Shown: positions 38,292-43,524 of the stretch, piece by piece
Position numbering within the stretch: position 1 is the first letter of the stretch
Layout of the letters: every line of letters starts with the position of its first letter
Source of the DNA: Alphaproteobacteria bacterium
GTDB taxonomy: Bacteria; Pseudomonadota; Alphaproteobacteria; ATCC43930; CGMCC-115725
Assembly (NCBI GenBank): GCA_028871055.1
Contig: JAGWON010000005.1
Span: 1-64,000 of the forward strand
Reading direction: 5' to 3'
DNA length: 64,000 bases
Notes under the pieces: generated by a model
Databases searched by the model: none
Seen by the model: only the letters and a program-made list of their open reading frames with translations
Told to the model about the DNA's origin: nothing
Position numbers and translations under genes: made by a program

Positions 38292-38564
38292 CGCTGTTCA
38301 CCTCACACAAAATGAGCCCGACACACGCGTCTTCGTTATCGACGTGCGGACAGTCCGGTAGAATAGAGCGAGACCGATCGCGGTGTTCCCCGACTCCTCG
38401 TTGGCCGGGAACGTCATGCTGCTGATATGACGCCCCCTCGACGGCAATCCGACGCGCAGCGCGCATCGGCAGCCGTGGCAAAATCTAACCGCGCAAATGG
38501 GGCACAAATTTGACGCGGACCGGCAGCCATCCGCGCCACCGCCCTCGGCGGTATCACGGAATGG

Positions 38565-38777
38565 TCACAGTTGACCGGGCCGGCACCGGCCCGCCGTGCG
38601 GGGCGGCAGGCGCAACCCGGCAACAATGCGACGCACCTCGGCGGCGGTTACCCCATCGCGCGCCATTACGGCGCACACCACCGGGTCGGACCGCGCCTCT
38701 TCGAACGGCGGCTCGATTCCGGGTTCGGCGTAGGGCAGCCGGCGAGGCGGCGAACGCGGCGGAAGGATGCGCGACAT
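38565..38777 (-). CDS. Small protein under ECF-type promoter, 70 aa
   Basis: I do not recognise the family. The ATG at 38777 follows a strong CGGAGGAAA ribosome site, 6 bp away. The sequence is proline- and arginine-rich (MSRILPPRSPPRRLPYAEPG), acidic in the middle (PPFEEARSDP), and has a helix DGVTAAEVRRIVAGLRLPP. No signal peptide or membrane segment. The upstream ECF-like promoter (38818-38843) leaves a leader of about 35 nt, supporting a real expressed gene of the same regulon as the anti-sigma and GalU-like genes. Confidence 0.65.
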   Translation of the reverse strand: MSRILPPRSPPRRLPYAEPGIEPPFEEARSDPVVCAVMARDGVTAAEVRRIVAGLRLPPRTAGRCRPGQL

Positions 38778-38817
38778 CGTGTTTCCTCCGGGTCGACAAT
38801 CGCTGTTGTCGACGACG

Positions 38818-38843
38818 GACGCCCGCACAGTCGGTATATTCCC
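38818..38843 (-). promoter_or_regulatory. ECF sigma-type promoter P3 (70-aa gene)
   Basis: On the minus strand GGGAATAT (-35, 38843-38836), a 15-bp spacer and GTCCGT (-10, from 38820). The same spacing and words occur before the anti-sigma gene and the GalU-like gene. Confidence 0.6.
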
Positions 38844-38874
38844 GCGCGATACTCGGTATATTCCCGCGCGATAC
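38831..38874. repeat. Perfect 22-bp tandem duplication
   Basis: TCGGTATATTCCCGCGCGAT plus AC occurs twice without a mismatch (38831-38852 and 38853-38874). Each copy contains a GGGAATAT -35-like element on the minus strand; only the gene-proximal copy has a GTC -10 at the right distance. Confidence 0.95.
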
Positions 38875-38923
38875 GCAGTAAAGCGCCCATCGTCGAGTCG
38901 CACAGGTGGCGAGCGTGCCGCCG

Positions 38924-39397
38924 TTACCGGCCGGCTGTAAGGAATACGTGCGGCACGACAGTCCAGTCGCCGCCCGCCGCGACCGACCAGGCTGTTGCGG
39001 TGGCGACAGCCGCCGCCGCGCTCCAGGCCAAGATGTGTCGGCCGCGCTGCTGCGCCAGGCGGCGGGCGAATTGCGCCGCCAAATAGGTCACTGCAGGCGA
39101 TGGCGGCTCGCGTACCAGCTGCCGCAAGACGCGGTTCTGGTGGCGATAGGCGGCGGCATCGGCCGCCGCCGCCGGGTGCCGCGCCAAGAACGAGCGCACG
39201 CGCTCGCGCCGCGCGGCATCGAGCGCGTCATCGACGAAAGCTTGCAGCTCGTAGTCGCTGATCGTCGATTCGATCCGGAACGCGTCGTCGGGCGCCCTCG
39301 GTTCCCGGCGCCGCGCCGGCCGCAACAGCGCTGCAATCGGCCGGCGCGCTCGACGGCGCGGCAGCATGACGACGTTGCTCGTACGACGTTCCAACAT
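38924..39397 (-). CDS. Probable anti-sigma factor (membrane-anchored)
   Basis: 157 residues. ISDYELQAFVDDALDAARRE (about 47-66) and FLARHPAAAADAAAYRHQNR resemble the N-terminal sigma-binding domain of alphaproteobacterial anti-sigma factors (the DLHAYVDGQLD-type pattern). One membrane helix follows near the C-terminus (ILAWSAAAAVATATAWSVAA), and about 15 residues would face the periplasm, a short sensor part. The ATG at 39397 is favoured because the promoter at 39440-39465 excludes the earlier start at 39457. It probably restrains the ECF sigma factor at 42056-42607, although that gene lies 3 kb away. Confidence 0.72.
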   Translation of the reverse strand: MLERRTSNVVMLPRRRARRPIAALLRPARRREPRAPDDAFRIESTISDYELQAFVDDALDAARRERVRSFLARHPAAAADAAAYRHQNRVLRQLVREPPSPAVTYLAAQFARRLAQQRGRHILAWSAAAAVATATAWSVAAGGDWTVVPHVFLTAGR

Positions 39398-39439
39398 GGG
39401 GCCCCGCCCGGGGTTGACATCACCCGTGACAGGGATACG

Positions 39440-39465
39440 GACGACACCCGGGCGCAATTATTCCC
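39440..39465 (-). promoter_or_regulatory. ECF sigma-type promoter P1 (anti-sigma gene)
   Basis: On the minus strand GGGAATAA (39465-39458), 15-bp spacer, GTCCGTAT (from 39442). It would start transcription about 35-40 nt before the ATG at 39397. Confidence 0.62.
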
Positions 39466-39518
39466 GGCATCGACATCCGCATTTCATCGCGCCGATAAGC
39501 GGCCGAAACGCGCCGCCG

Positions 39519-39544
39519 GGGAATAATCCGGCCGCTTCCGCGTC
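39519..39544 (+). promoter_or_regulatory. ECF sigma-type promoter P2 (GalU-like operon)
   Basis: GGGAATAA (39519-39526), 15-bp spacer, GTCTTTAC (from 39542), 51 bp before the ATG at 39593. It diverges from P1; the two -35 elements form an inverted repeat in the 195-bp shared intergenic region. Confidence 0.62.
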
Positions 39545-39592
39545 TTTACCAGCGGCGGGTTCACGCCAGACTGCAATCGACCGCGAGGGACC

Positions 39593-40540
39593 ATGAAGCC
39601 ACGACACGTTCGCAGGGCGATCATTCCCGCAGGCGCGCTCGGCACCCGATTCCTTCCCGCGACCAAGGCCTTGCCGACGGAAATGCTGCCGCTGGTCGAC
39701 CGACCGCTCGTTCAATACGCCGTCGATGAAGCGCTCGCCGCCGGCATCGAGAAGATCGTGGTCGTCACCGGCCGCGGCAAGGCCGCGATCGAGGATCATT
39801 TCGACTGCGCGCGCGAGCTCGAGGACACGCTTCGCCGCCATGGCAAGCGGGGCGCGCTTCAGGCGGTCGAGGACAGCTGCGCGCGGCCCGGCGTCATCGC
39901 ATATATGAGGCAACAGCAGCCATTGGGCCTGGCTCACGCCCTGTGGTGCGCGCGGCATGTGATCGGCGACGAGCCCTTTGCGGTCCTGGCGCCGGACGAC
40001 GTGATCCTGGCGAAGGTCCCTTGCCTGGTGCAGATGGTCGCGGCCTATCGGGAAATTGGCGACAATCTGGTCGCGGTGACTCCGTTGGCGCGCAGCGGGA
40101 CCGCGCGCAACGGTGCGATCGCGGCGACCGCGCGTAACGGCCGCTTGCTCACCGCATCCGGCATCGCCGCGCAACCCGCGTCCGCTGGCTTGGCGTCGAA
40201 ATGGGCGGTCGCCGGCCGTTATATCCTCGATTCGGCGATCCTTCGCCGCCTGGGCGAGCGGCCGCCGAACCCCGACGGCGACGTCCCATTCATCGACGCG
40301 CTCGCGCGCCTGGCCGGCGACGGCGCGCTCCGCGGCTATGCCTTCGCCGGACGCCACTTCGATTGCAGCGACGTGCCGGGCCTGCTCGAGGCCAATATCG
40401 CTTTTGCCCTGGACCGAACCGATCTCGCGCCGACAGTGCGGCACGTGTTGTCACGGTATGCCCGACTCGTCGGCCATACCGTCGACCATACCGGCCGGCC
40501 GCGACCGGTCGAGACGCCGGAAATGGCGGTGCCGGCATGA
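39593..40540 (+). CDS. GalU-like nucleotidyltransferase with altered catalytic motifs
   Basis: 315 residues of the UTP-glucose-1-phosphate uridylyltransferase fold: AIIPAGALGTRFLPATKALP (about 9-28), LPLVDRPLVQYAVDEALAAG, VVVTGRGKAAIEDHFD, PLGLAHALWCARHVIGDEPF, FAVLAPDDVI and WAVAGRYIL. Key positions differ from normal GalU: the nucleotide loop ends PTEM instead of PKEM; the VEKP motif, whose lysine contacts the sugar nucleotide, reads AAQP (about residue 193); and the GE-QLTDA motif reads GDVPFIDA. It may be inactive, regulatory or use another substrate. The next gene overlaps it by 4 nt. Confidence 0.8.
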   Translation: MKPRHVRRAIIPAGALGTRFLPATKALPTEMLPLVDRPLVQYAVDEALAAGIEKIVVVTGRGKAAIEDHFDCARELEDTLRRHGKRGALQAVEDSCARPGVIAYMRQQQPLGLAHALWCARHVIGDEPFAVLAPDDVILAKVPCLVQMVAAYREIGDNLVAVTPLARSGTARNGAIAATARNGRLLTASGIAAQPASAGLASKWAVAGRYILDSAILRRLGERPPNPDGDVPFIDALARLAGDGALRGYAFAGRHFDCSDVPGLLEANIAFALDRTDLAPTVRHVLSRYARLVGHTVDHTGRPRPVETPEMAVPA

Positions 40541-42048
40541 AGATGAACGGCACGCACTACCGCACGAGCGGCGCATTCTCGGACGGCCGCCTGCGTCCGG
40601 AGCGAATCGGATCGCCGGCGGCACGACGCACGATCGGCAAGCGCCTCATCGATCCCGCGAACCTGCGCGAGGACGACATACGCGGGATCGTCGGCAAGAC
40701 GCTCGACGACGCCGATGCCGGTGCGCTCGGCGCCGCTTTCGGAACGCTGGTATCCGAGCGCGGCGGCCGCACGGTCGCGCTGGGCTTCGACGGCCGCTTG
40801 ACCTCGCGCGCCTTGGCCGTCGCGTTCGCCCGCGGCCTGATCGCGACCGGGATCCACGTTGCCCGTGTCGGCCTCGGTCCGACGCCGATGCTCTATTTCG
40901 CCAATGCGATGCTGCGGACCGACGCGGCGGTCATGGTGACCGGTTCGCACGACCCACCCGAATACAACGGCTTCAAGCTGACGGTCCGCGGTCGCACCCT
41001 GCGTCGCACCGACATCTGGCGCTTGGGCGAGATCGCCGCCGCCGGCGCCTTCGCGCCGGGCGCCGGCCTTATCCTCGACCGCCCGGTGATCGACGCCTAT
41101 GTCGAGCGCCTCATCGGCGACCTTTCGCTCGCGCGACCGCTTGCCGTGGTGTGGGACGCGAGCAACGGCGCCGCTGGCGCCGTGCTGACCAAACTATGCA
41201 CGCGGATTCCGGGCCGCCATGTCCTGCTGAACGAGATGGTGGACGGCACCTTCCCGTCGCACCGCCCCGATCCGACGACGCCCGACGCGCTCGATCAGCT
41301 CCGCAAGATCGTGGTCGCCGAGGAATGCGAACTCGGCGTCGCCTTCGACGGCGACGGCGACCGCATCGGCGTCATCGACGGCGAGGGGCGCGTGCTGTGG
41401 GGCGATCAGATCCTGCTGCTGCTCGCGCGCGACGTGCTGCGCGAGCGTCCCGGCGCGACGATCATCGCCGACGTCAAGGCCAGCCAGACCCTCTTCGACG
41501 AGATCGCCAGACTCGGCGGTCGCCCGGTCATCGCGCGCGCCGGCCGCCTGCCGATCGAGGCCAAGATCGCCGAGACCGGCGCGCCGCTCGCCGGCGAGAT
41601 GAGCGGCCATATCTACCTCGGCGACAAATATTACGGATACGACGATGCGCTCTATGCGGCGCTGCGGCTGATGAACGTCGTGTCGCGCGCGGATCGCAGC
41701 CTGGCCGCTCTGCGCGACGGCATGCCGCAGACCTTCAACACGCCGGAACTGTCCCTGCCCTGCGCGGACGGCCGCAAGCTCGTGGTGATCGACGAGATTC
41801 GCGCGCGCCTCGCGGCCGCCGGCGCGGAGGTCATCGCCATCGACGGCGTGAGGGTCCGGACTGACGACGGTTGGTGGCTATTGCGCGCCTCGACCATGCG
41901 AGACGCATTGGTCGCGTGCTGCGAAGCGACGACCGAAGCCGGTCTGATCCGGGTGAAGGAGACGCTGCGCGAACAGCTCGAGCGCAGCGGCGTGCCGGCG
42001 GCCGCGCTTGGCGAATTTTACGAGGATCCGATCGCGACGATCGGCTGA
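40537..42048 (+). CDS. Phosphomannomutase/phosphoglucomutase family enzyme
   Basis: 503 residues, alpha-D-phosphohexomutase family, which interconverts hexose-6-phosphate and hexose-1-phosphate. Motifs in order: active-site serine loop VTGSHDPPEYNGFK (about 133-146), metal loop AFDGDGDRIGVIDG (about 269-282), sugar-binding GEMSGHIYLGDKYYGYDDAL (about 354-373), and phosphate-binding RASTMRDAL near residue 450. The usual SHNP is SHDP, a mild change. Its product would feed the GalU-like partner, with which it overlaps by ATGA, and GDP-mannose synthesis for gmd. PMM versus PGM specificity cannot be fixed from sequence. Confidence 0.9.
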   Translation: MKMNGTHYRTSGAFSDGRLRPERIGSPAARRTIGKRLIDPANLREDDIRGIVGKTLDDADAGALGAAFGTLVSERGGRTVALGFDGRLTSRALAVAFARGLIATGIHVARVGLGPTPMLYFANAMLRTDAAVMVTGSHDPPEYNGFKLTVRGRTLRRTDIWRLGEIAAAGAFAPGAGLILDRPVIDAYVERLIGDLSLARPLAVVWDASNGAAGAVLTKLCTRIPGRHVLLNEMVDGTFPSHRPDPTTPDALDQLRKIVVAEECELGVAFDGDGDRIGVIDGEGRVLWGDQILLLLARDVLRERPGATIIADVKASQTLFDEIARLGGRPVIARAGRLPIEAKIAETGAPLAGEMSGHIYLGDKYYGYDDALYAALRLMNVVSRADRSLAALRDGMPQTFNTPELSLPCADGRKLVVIDEIRARLAAAGAEVIAIDGVRVRTDDGWWLLRASTMRDALVACCEATTEAGLIRVKETLREQLERSGVPAAALGEFYEDPIATIG

Positions 42049-42055
42049 CGACGGC

Positions 42056-42607
42056 TCAGACGACGCGCAGATGGCCGCGGCGCACGGCGACGCTGCGCAA
42101 TGGCGACGACGGTAGCCGGTCGCGGCCTTCGGTCAGGCGGCGGAGCGCCTCCCGGCCCCGCGACAGCCGCGACATCACCGTACCGATCGGGACATCGAGC
42201 GTTTCGGCCGCCTGCTGATAGCTCATGCCCTCGAGGCCGACGAGCAGGACGACTTCGCGCTGCTCCACCGGCAGATGTTGCAGCGCGCGCTCGAGATCCT
42301 TGAGTTCGACCGCGGCCGTCTGGGTCTCGGCGCACGCCGTGCGGCCGCCGACCGTCAGCTGGAGCTCGATGTAATTCCGTTGGCGGCGACGGCTGGCAAG
42401 CCAATCGACGTAGGCATTGTGCATGATGGCGAAAAGATAGGCGCGCGGATCCCGGATGCGGCTCCACAGCCGCGCTTGCGCGATCGCGCGGACCAAACAT
42501 TCCTGCACCAGTTCGTCGGCCTCGCCGGCGTGGCCGACCAGCGCGCGCGCATAGCGCCGCAGATCGGCCGTGTATCGCCGAACCGACTCGTCGAGTGCCG
42601 CGCTCAT
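42056..42607 (-). CDS. ECF RNA polymerase sigma factor
   Basis: 183 residues from the ATG at 42607 (a G-rich site upstream). Region 2: ARALVGHAGEADELVQECLV, AQARLWSRIRDPRAYLFAIM, HNAYVDWLASRRR (about 22-78). Region 4: ALQHLPVEQREVVLLVGLEG, MSYQQAAETLDVPIGTVMSR (about 113-155). No region 3, as usual for ECF. It converges on the mutase gene (7-bp gap). The likely anti-sigma gene lies on the other side of the galU-like/mutase operon rather than adjoining it. Likely target promoters are P1-P3; its own upstream region shows no copy of that motif. Confidence 0.93.
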   Translation of the reverse strand: MSAALDESVRRYTADLRRYARALVGHAGEADELVQECLVRAIAQARLWSRIRDPRAYLFAIMHNAYVDWLASRRRQRNYIELQLTVGGRTACAETQTAAVELKDLERALQHLPVEQREVVLLVGLEGMSYQQAAETLDVPIGTVMSRLSRGREALRRLTEGRDRLPSSPLRSVAVRRGHLRVV

Positions 42608-42716
42608 CCGCCCCTGTCCATGTTGCCGTGCAGAAATAAACCGTGCGGCCAAATCCGACTCGTGACAAAAAAGCGCTTCGCACCGCGGCGGCGCGTCCGA
42701 ATTCCGCCACATTCGA

Positions 42717-42741
42717 GGAACGGATCGTGCCGCGTGTCGTT
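42717..42741 (+). promoter_or_regulatory. EcfG-type general stress promoter before otsB
   Basis: GGAAC (42717-42721), 16-bp spacer, CGTT (42738-42741), an exact match to the alphaproteobacterial EcfG consensus. It overlaps the favoured GTG start at 42727; if active, translation would begin at GTG 42760. Confidence 0.45.
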
Positions 42742-43524
42742 CGGTCCGCAGGGGTCCGCGTGAGCCGCGCCGTAACCGGAATCGCCGCACCGCAATCGCC
42801 GCCGCCGTTGGCGCGCGGCGACGCGCTGTTCATCGATTTCGACGGCACGCTGGTCGAGATCGCGGCGATGCCCGATCGCGTCGAAGTCATGGCCGGCGTG
42901 CCCGCGCTGCTGCAGCGGGCGGCCGTGCGCCTGGGCGGCGCGCTGGCGGTGATCAGCGGTCGGCCGCTCGCCGAGCTCGGGCGCTTCCTCGCCGGTTATA
43001 CCGGCGCCGCCGCCGGCATCCACGGCCTCGAACGCCGCAGCGCTTCCGGCGAGACGCACGTGCCCACACCCGATCCGGTACTCGACCTGGTTTGGCCGGT
43101 CGTGCGCCAATTCGCGGCCGTGACCCAGGGCGTGCTGATCGAGGACAAGCGCCTGTCGATCGCCATCCACTACCGGGGCCGGCCCGAGCTTGCCGAAGCG
43201 TGCCGACGCCTGGCCGAGCAGGCGGTCATCCTGTCGAAAGAGCGGCTGGCGATGCGGCCCGGCAAGATGGTGGTCGAGCTTCATCCGCGTGACGTCGACA
43301 AGGGCCGCGCCGTGCGTGCGTTTCTTGCCGAGCCGGAATTCGCGGGCCGTCGGCCGGTCTTTGTCGGCGACGACCGCACCGACGAGGACGGCTTCGCGTT
43401 CGTCAACGAGCACGGCGGGATTTCGGTCCACGTCGGCACCGCCGACGACACCTTTGCGCGCTACCGGCTCGATGGCGTCGATGCGGTGATCCGTTGGCTC
43501 GAGGATTTCCTCGCCGAAGGCTAA
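42727..43524 (+). CDS. otsB: Trehalose-6-phosphate phosphatase
   Basis: 265 residues, HAD superfamily. It removes phosphate from trehalose-6-phosphate to give trehalose, an osmotic and desiccation protectant. HAD motif I is FIDFDGTLVEIA (nucleophile Asp), motif II AVISGRP, motif III lysine in KMVVELHPRDVDKG, motif IV VFVGDDRTDEDGF. The start is ambiguous: GTG 42727 with GAGGA before it, GTG 42760 with AGGGG, or GTG 42643. No trehalose-phosphate synthase (otsA) gene is in the window. Its stop codon overlaps the end of the convergent ABC exporter gene. Confidence 0.92.
   Translation: MPRVVRSAGVRVSRAVTGIAAPQSPPPLARGDALFIDFDGTLVEIAAMPDRVEVMAGVPALLQRAAVRLGGALAVISGRPLAELGRFLAGYTGAAAGIHGLERRSASGETHVPTPDPVLDLVWPVVRQFAAVTQGVLIEDKRLSIAIHYRGRPELAEACRRLAEQAVILSKERLAMRPGKMVVELHPRDVDKGRAVRAFLAEPEFAGRRPVFVGDDRTDEDGFAFVNEHGGISVHVGTADDTFARYRLDGVDAVIRWLEDFLAEG

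Follow-up and report, generated by a model that had tools for sequence, protein, structure and literature searches.

This locus raises the question of what a bacterium does with a GalU-like protein that has lost the signature lysines of its family and is encoded in one operon with a mutase. The two enzyme families catalyse consecutive steps of UDP-glucose synthesis, PgmG converting Glc-6-P to Glc-1-P and GalU converting Glc-1-P to UDP-Glc. In the window, by which we mean the whole stretch of 64,000 nucleotides analysed, altered relatives of both are encoded side by side and are marked here with an asterisk:

39593 to 40540, forward strand: galU*, an ATG to TGA open reading frame of 315 aa for a predicted GalU-fold protein with five functionally critical residues replaced
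40537 to 42048, forward strand: pgmG*, for a predicted phosphohexomutase-fold protein; the start overlaps the galU* stop (ATGA), the substrate loops are altered and the phosphoserine and metal loop are kept

The reading we favour, with a probability of about one half, is that galU*-pgmG* is an ECF-controlled, matched pair of pseudoenzymes derived from two consecutive UDP-glucose enzymes and acting as non-catalytic modulators. The original prediction had offered a regulator, a sugar sensor or an enzyme of new specificity for galU*. A regulator fits best, because catalytic residues are lost while tetramer residues are kept, the gene is under purifying selection, its promoter motif is nearly private and a canonical GalU is encoded elsewhere in the genome. 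For GalU* a new enzymatic specificity is disfavoured, since the ortholog of the sister species carries other residues at most catalytic sites that have changed.

Gene module and promoters

The genome of the window (G000) is an assembly of 3.07 Mb in 33 contigs. Among three other genomes of the same genus (G001, G002 and G003), one, G002, has both orthologs in synteny (galU* 62%, pgmG* 70% identity), with neighbours conserved over the 19 kb examined. In G000 and G002 the pair is part of a four-gene module, with a putative anti-sigma gene and an ECF sigma gene, that lies between a response regulator gene and otsB (window 38300-42640). Capsule-type export genes adjoin galU*-pgmG*, and a trehalose-phosphate synthase relative is encoded on contig C14 of G000. 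The further features are:

38818 to 38842, reverse strand: third, weaker motif GGAATA-N15-CGTC (relaxed motif match)
38924 to 39397, reverse strand: putative anti-sigma gene, 157 aa from the ATG at 39397, with a hydrophobic stretch near the C-terminus; role from position only
39440 to 39465, reverse strand: second, divergent copy of the ECF-type motif, 42 bp upstream of the putative anti-sigma ATG
39519 to 39544, forward strand: ECF-type promoter motif GGGAATAAT-N13-CGTC, with 48 bp between its end and the galU* ATG
42056 to 42790, reverse strand: ECF sigma factor gene, longest open reading frame (with a true start possibly closer to 42625), convergent to pgmG* and closing the module
42643 to 43524, forward strand: otsB, trehalose-phosphatase (TIGR00685 160 bits, cut-off 68), present as well in G001 and G003, which are without the module at that place

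An ECF promoter had been proposed, and an ECF-type promoter motif is present. Genome-wide, the strict motif GGGAATAA-N(13-17)-CGTC has two matches, the divergent pair listed above, against no match for the reversed motif in the genome and none in shuffles of the window. The relaxed motif matched the genome at 11 places and its reversed control at 1; eight of the 11 lie outside the window, and the one on contig C19 is in no evident promoter position. A similar divergent pair, GGAATAAA-N13-CGTC, is found in G002. The distance from motif to start codon is also alike, being 48 bp for galU*, 46 bp for its G002 ortholog, 49 bp for a second galU in G001 and 42 bp for the anti-sigma gene, while the canonical galUs of the genus (4/4) are without the motif in the 160 bp searched upstream. 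The adjacent ECF sigma factor probably reads these promoters. Its product matches TIGR02937 (sigma70-ECF) with 77.7 bits at a cut-off of 42.9, and among 43 genomes of the order copies at least 70% identical to its gene were found only in G000 and G002, others reaching at most 53%. The putative anti-sigma product has no Pfam match, and a homologous open reading frame (47% identity) is present in G002. The third motif lies about 530 bp before the response regulator open reading frame and adjoins a short direct repeat; no copy of it was seen in the G002 stretch.

Distribution

At the corresponding place in G003 (L175) and on contig C161 of G001 (L176) the module is absent, and the response regulator gene directly adjoins otsB. 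Contig C22 of G001 carries a second galU with intact motifs and the same promoter motif (ATG at L095 7516), which adjoins an ECF gene and a related ABC transporter. This contig may be foreign to the G001 bin, because its GC (61.7%) is poorer than that of two other G001 contigs (about 65%). The genus is a natural series, with an intact-motif second galU (G001), the altered pair (G000 and G002) and neither found (G003). As for side observations, the G001 ECF gene (L095, C22; 6059-6604, 6129-6308) appears frameshifted, with its N- and C-terminal halves in different frames, and the ABC-glycosyltransferase stretch that follows otsB is likewise absent there in G003.

A canonical galU, whose absence would have counted against the original prediction, was found at G000:C5:58548-59414, in a canonical galU-pgmG pair with unchanged motifs and with both products above their family cut-offs (347.8 and 751.5 bits). 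A two-row GalU* profile gave its two members 653 and 619 bits and all else listed at most 360, in 43 genomes of the order and 385 of the class (385 genomes drawn, at most five candidates scored per genome); a PgmG* profile gave 1067 and 1051 for the two members and at most 604 for all else listed in the order. There was no galU* ortholog among the best 80 of 356 confirmed loci in a search of genome contigs (43-49% identity), nor in 140 plasmid records, all under 60%. In the GalU tree galU* and its G002 ortholog form a sister pair (100/100) with a long stem (2.29), and their placement among the GalUs is ambiguous, the AU test rejecting neither a union with the second galU of G001 (p 0.345) nor one with the genus's canonical galUs (p 0.135).

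Lost catalytic residues in GalU*

The altered motifs noted at the outset were confirmed in the open reading frame and in the motif columns, with PTEM, AAQP and GDVPFIDA at the sites of canonical PKEM, VEKP and GE-QLTDA. In window numbering, G15, K29, E193, K194 and E230 are replaced by A, T, A, Q and D, and these five residues are intact in 107/107 other distinct GalU sequences. For this set identical sequences were collapsed first and only loci with a retrieved sequence were compared, the genome-contig matches among them, so that plasmid matches and some listed family members without a locus are left out. Two other near-invariant sites are changed as well, G to A in GGLGTR and K to V in GDK. 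Two other genomes of the family, G014 and G035, have two GalU copies each (G014:C36:20640-21500; G035:C140/C150), of which the C36 copy of G014 (41% identity) was left out of the residue comparison.

The five positions correspond to G17, K31, E201, K202 and E238 of KpUGP, whose catalytic residues were placed on galU* by motif and a constant offset. From the ten catalytic residues G17, R21, K31, E32, Q109, G114, D137, E201, K202 and E238, the window protein keeps 5/10 (R21, E32, Q109, G114 and D137) and the G002 ortholog 6/10. According to the Klebsiella GalU study PMC11796359, the single mutants G17A, K31A, E201A and K202A have 0.56%, 0.45%, 0.67% and 6.0% activity, and E238A about 2%. Window G15A is the exact same change as G17A. 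At the altered catalytic sites the two orthologs have A/D, Q/W and T/K (window/G002), and only G15A and E230D are common to both; E230D in both orthologs and E193D in G002 are conservative changes.

GalU* matches the GalU equivalog model TIGR01099 over most of its length, with 248 bits, and its G002 ortholog scores 233.2 bits, both under the cut-off of 326.8, which the canonical galU (347.8) and the second galU of G001 (328.0) exceed. The PF00483 (NTP_transferase) match of 64.6 bits is above the gathering cut-off of 21.2. The residue losses suggest that GalU* can hardly make UDP-glucose.

Predicted fold and tetramer residues

That the GalU fold is kept, as the original prediction held, is supported by an AlphaFold2 model with a mean pLDDT of 85.5 and a pTM of 0.85. 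Its best Foldseek match in the PDB is 2ux8, the GalU (UgpG) of Sphingomonas elodea (TM 0.82 by query, 0.91 by target), and the top PDB matches are GalUs. This closest solved relative is like GalU* in predicted fold, in length and at 47% of residues, and unlike it in the five critical positions and in the equivalog score. In the one model made, without a canonical GalU control, pLDDT drops to 67-73 at residues 11-30, 161-170, 191-200 and 221-230, altered loops included.

The study PMC11796359 further states that the GalU tetramer is broken by loss of K27, K65, D73 or R108, and that K10R is harmless. All four tetramer residues are retained in both GalU* orthologs, and K10 is R in both. The difference between 4/4 tetramer and 5/10 catalytic residues kept is not significant alone (p 0.22), and the tetramer residues are located in the better-conserved N-terminal part of the protein. 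A tetramer-type assembly of GalU* is suggested by these residues.

The altered mutase

The mutase of the operon had been described as intact, which it is not, and one odd protein thereby becomes a jointly altered pair. In both species PgmG* is altered at the N-terminal Tyr of LREYDIRG, the loop-1 Asn of SHNP, the TGHSxIK loop and the Asn-Thr of the RxSNT phosphate clamp. With the codon at 40540 as residue 1, the window changes are Y45D, N138D, T334A, H336R, S337L, K340E, N452T and T453M, and each site is conserved in 30/30 canonical relatives. Retained in the window protein are R48, S136 (the phosphoserine), K146, DGDGDR, K313, E353, S355, H357, R449 and S451. The phosphoserine and the DGDGDR metal loop are also kept in G002, where K313 and S355 are additionally lost. 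In Xanthomonas PGM the equivalent Asn and Thr (by motif) bind the substrate phosphate, and a water bridge involves Tyr9. The K285A mutant described in PMC3369874 retains 10% of kcat/Km, so K313G of G002 PgmG* need not abolish activity.

The structure model of PgmG* has a mean pLDDT of 88.1 and finds P. aeruginosa PMM/PGM as its best Foldseek matches in the PDB; the matches include structures that by title are GlmM-CdaA complexes, which count as a precedent for the modulator reading. Against the PgmG model NF046027 (cut-off 600), window PgmG* scores 615.1 bits, the G002 ortholog 539.2 and the canonical product 751.5. The altered window mutase passing its equivalog cut-off is a warning for annotation. 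It is less certain for window PgmG* than for GalU* that the protein is dead, and judging from the residues kept the window PgmG* could still be active, as a mutase of altered taste.

Selection and pattern of change

Selection was estimated from the G000-G002 comparison by pairwise maximum likelihood, with a script of our own (GY94 type, F3x4). The dN/dS is 0.152 for galU* (dS 1.9) and 0.072 for pgmG* (dS 2.5), values that are approximate because dS near 2 is close to saturation. A dN/dS of 1 is rejected for both (LRT 118.5 and 323.6), and both genes are under purifying selection. The canonical genes give 0.031 (galU) and 0.054 (pgmG), the constraint on galU* being about five times weaker than on its canonical counterpart. 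The ECF sigma gene has 0.136, and the neighbours have 0.158 (otsB), 0.126 (Wza-like), 0.086 (Wzc-like), 0.067 (response regulator), 0.047 (ABC) and 0.047 (FAH-like).

Near-invariant GalU columns, defined as those conserved in at least 95% of 43 canonical rows, number 87, with 59 kept in both orthologs, 17 lost in both, 5 lost in the window only and 6 in G002 only. Conservation is higher up to residue 135 than beyond it (44/54 vs 15/33 columns, p 0.0008). For PgmG there are 167 columns, of which both orthologs retain 122 and both have lost 21, with 4 lost in the window only and 20 in G002 only, and the end branch in the tree is 0.10 for the window against 0.46 for G002. The replacement is the same at 7/17 of the columns jointly lost in GalU* and at 15/21 of those jointly lost in PgmG*. 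This pattern makes a good pseudoenzyme case for GalU* of either species and for the PgmG* of G002.

Modulators or another function

If the pair are modulators, the ECF sigma factor, once freed from the anti-sigma factor, would transcribe galU*-pgmG*. GalU* would most likely assemble with itself or with housekeeping GalU as a non-catalytic subunit, through which UDP-glucose supply could be tuned to surface polysaccharide or trehalose, and PgmG* would act likewise beside housekeeping PgmG. Both the hetero-assembly and the direction of regulation are presumed here. More tentatively, the sigma/anti-sigma genes may form a switch by which envelope stress retunes UDP-glucose output, swapping pseudoenzyme subunits into mixed GalU/PgmG complexes. 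The modulator view is limited by the pair being carried by only two species, G000 and G002.

It is conceivable, though unlikely, that PgmG*, at least that of the window species, and perhaps also GalU* are neofunctionalised enzymes that use a different sugar phosphate or nucleotide and supply the neighbouring polysaccharide genes with a special precursor. The phosphotransfer centre of PgmG* is kept, most joint changes are identical in both species, the window branch is short and the dN/dS is near the canonical value, and GalU* keeps R19, E30, Q107, G112, D135 and D257. The few shared replacements in GalU*, however, do not amount to a conserved new active site, and the loss of K313 and S355 in G002 points to mutase erosion in that species; a new specificity is thus less likely for GalU* and may still apply to window PgmG*. 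We also doubt that a former second galU-pgmG pair, now useless, is slowly eroding, with a low dN/dS left from the time before function was lost. This is kept as a rival because a pairwise dN/dS estimate cannot date the constraint, and it fits the further losses in both G002 proteins, the weaker constraint on galU* and the presence in G001 of a second galU with intact motifs. Several losses are nevertheless common to both species, and are most simply older than their split, yet the frames are open and dN/dS is well under 1 over a dS of about 2. Such values, together with the other reading frames taken as controls, argue against decaying pseudogenes, and the value of galU* is similar to those of otsB and Wza.

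Less can be said for a stress-induced sensor, in which GalU* and PgmG* would bind a sugar phosphate or a nucleotide, leave it unconverted and signal its presence, for instance to the ECF/anti-sigma pair. The nucleotide-side residues of GalU* are largely kept and the genes adjoin such a pair, but the lost residues include sugar and phosphate contacts, and a domain search found no signalling domain, which makes this reading very improbable. It is hardly credible that the two proteins simply serve under stress as one more ordinary UDP-glucose pyrophosphorylase and mutase and are active in spite of their substitutions: the intact-motif second galU of G001 does carry the same promoter motif, but five critical residues are changed in GalU* and both orthologs fall below the equivalog cut-off that the canonical and G001 proteins pass.

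Comparison with known systems

Among known proteins, GalF of enterobacteria is the nearest precedent and resembles GalU* in being a near-inactive GalU paralog encoded near polysaccharide genes, with a canonical GalU elsewhere. We know of no altered mutase partner of GalF. GalU* is not a GalF, because its losses are at other residues and it stays below the cut-offs of the GalF models (TIGR01105, 161.3 against 659.2; NF007516, 169.5 against 534). According to published work, GalF has lost T20/R21 and kept E201/K202, whereas GalU* keeps T18/R19 in both orthologs (the GalF-type change to Met/His is not present) and has lost the equivalents of G17, K31, E201, K202 and E238. The same sources describe GalF as a monomer or dimer, while GalU* keeps the tetramer residues. 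They give about 0.06% activity for Klebsiella GalF, report that E. coli GalF interacts with GalU and alters its thermal resistance, and, for Klebsiella, consider stable GalF-GalU hetero-oligomers unlikely there; a Salmonella sigma-E ChIP-seq paper mentions galF. The role of GalF is still disputed, and galU* is a second case with different losses, kept tetramer residues, an altered mutase partner and a nearly private promoter motif. Such a case would open to direct test the question whether UDP-glucose supply is regulated by inactive GalU subunits.

PgmG and PMM/PGM of P. aeruginosa and Xanthomonas share with window PgmG* the fold, phosphoserine, metal loop and sugar-contact Glu/Ser, and differ from it in the N-terminal Tyr, loop-1 Asn, TGHSxIK loop and clamp Asn-Thr, which are replaced in PgmG*. 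Vertebrate PGM5, a further precedent, is likewise a phosphohexomutase with serine and metal site kept and is itself inactive, and the human protein has a changed loop-1 Asn and a different loop 4. PGM5 is unlike PgmG* in being eukaryotic and without a pseudo-pyrophosphorylase partner. Further literature for comparison is found in PMC4643126, PMC6443537 and PMC7761743. A literature search limited in wording and to one library found no published account of an altered galU*-pgmG* pair. A pseudo-GalU itself is of a known kind, and what is new here is that its partner is an altered mutase and that the promoter is nearly private.

Antisense frames

Open antisense frames extend over galU* (39458-40444, reverse strand) and pgmG* (41194-41610, reverse strand). 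For galU*, the dN/dS is 1.1-4.4 in four of five other frames and 0.286 in antisense+1, and the three antisense frames of pgmG* have 1.6, 0.159 and 8.5. The two low values (antisense+1, 0.286 and 0.159) are read as mirrors of codon position 3 and not as genes, because dN/dS is lower in the sense frames, which also have family matches. They could mislead a screen for overlapping genes.
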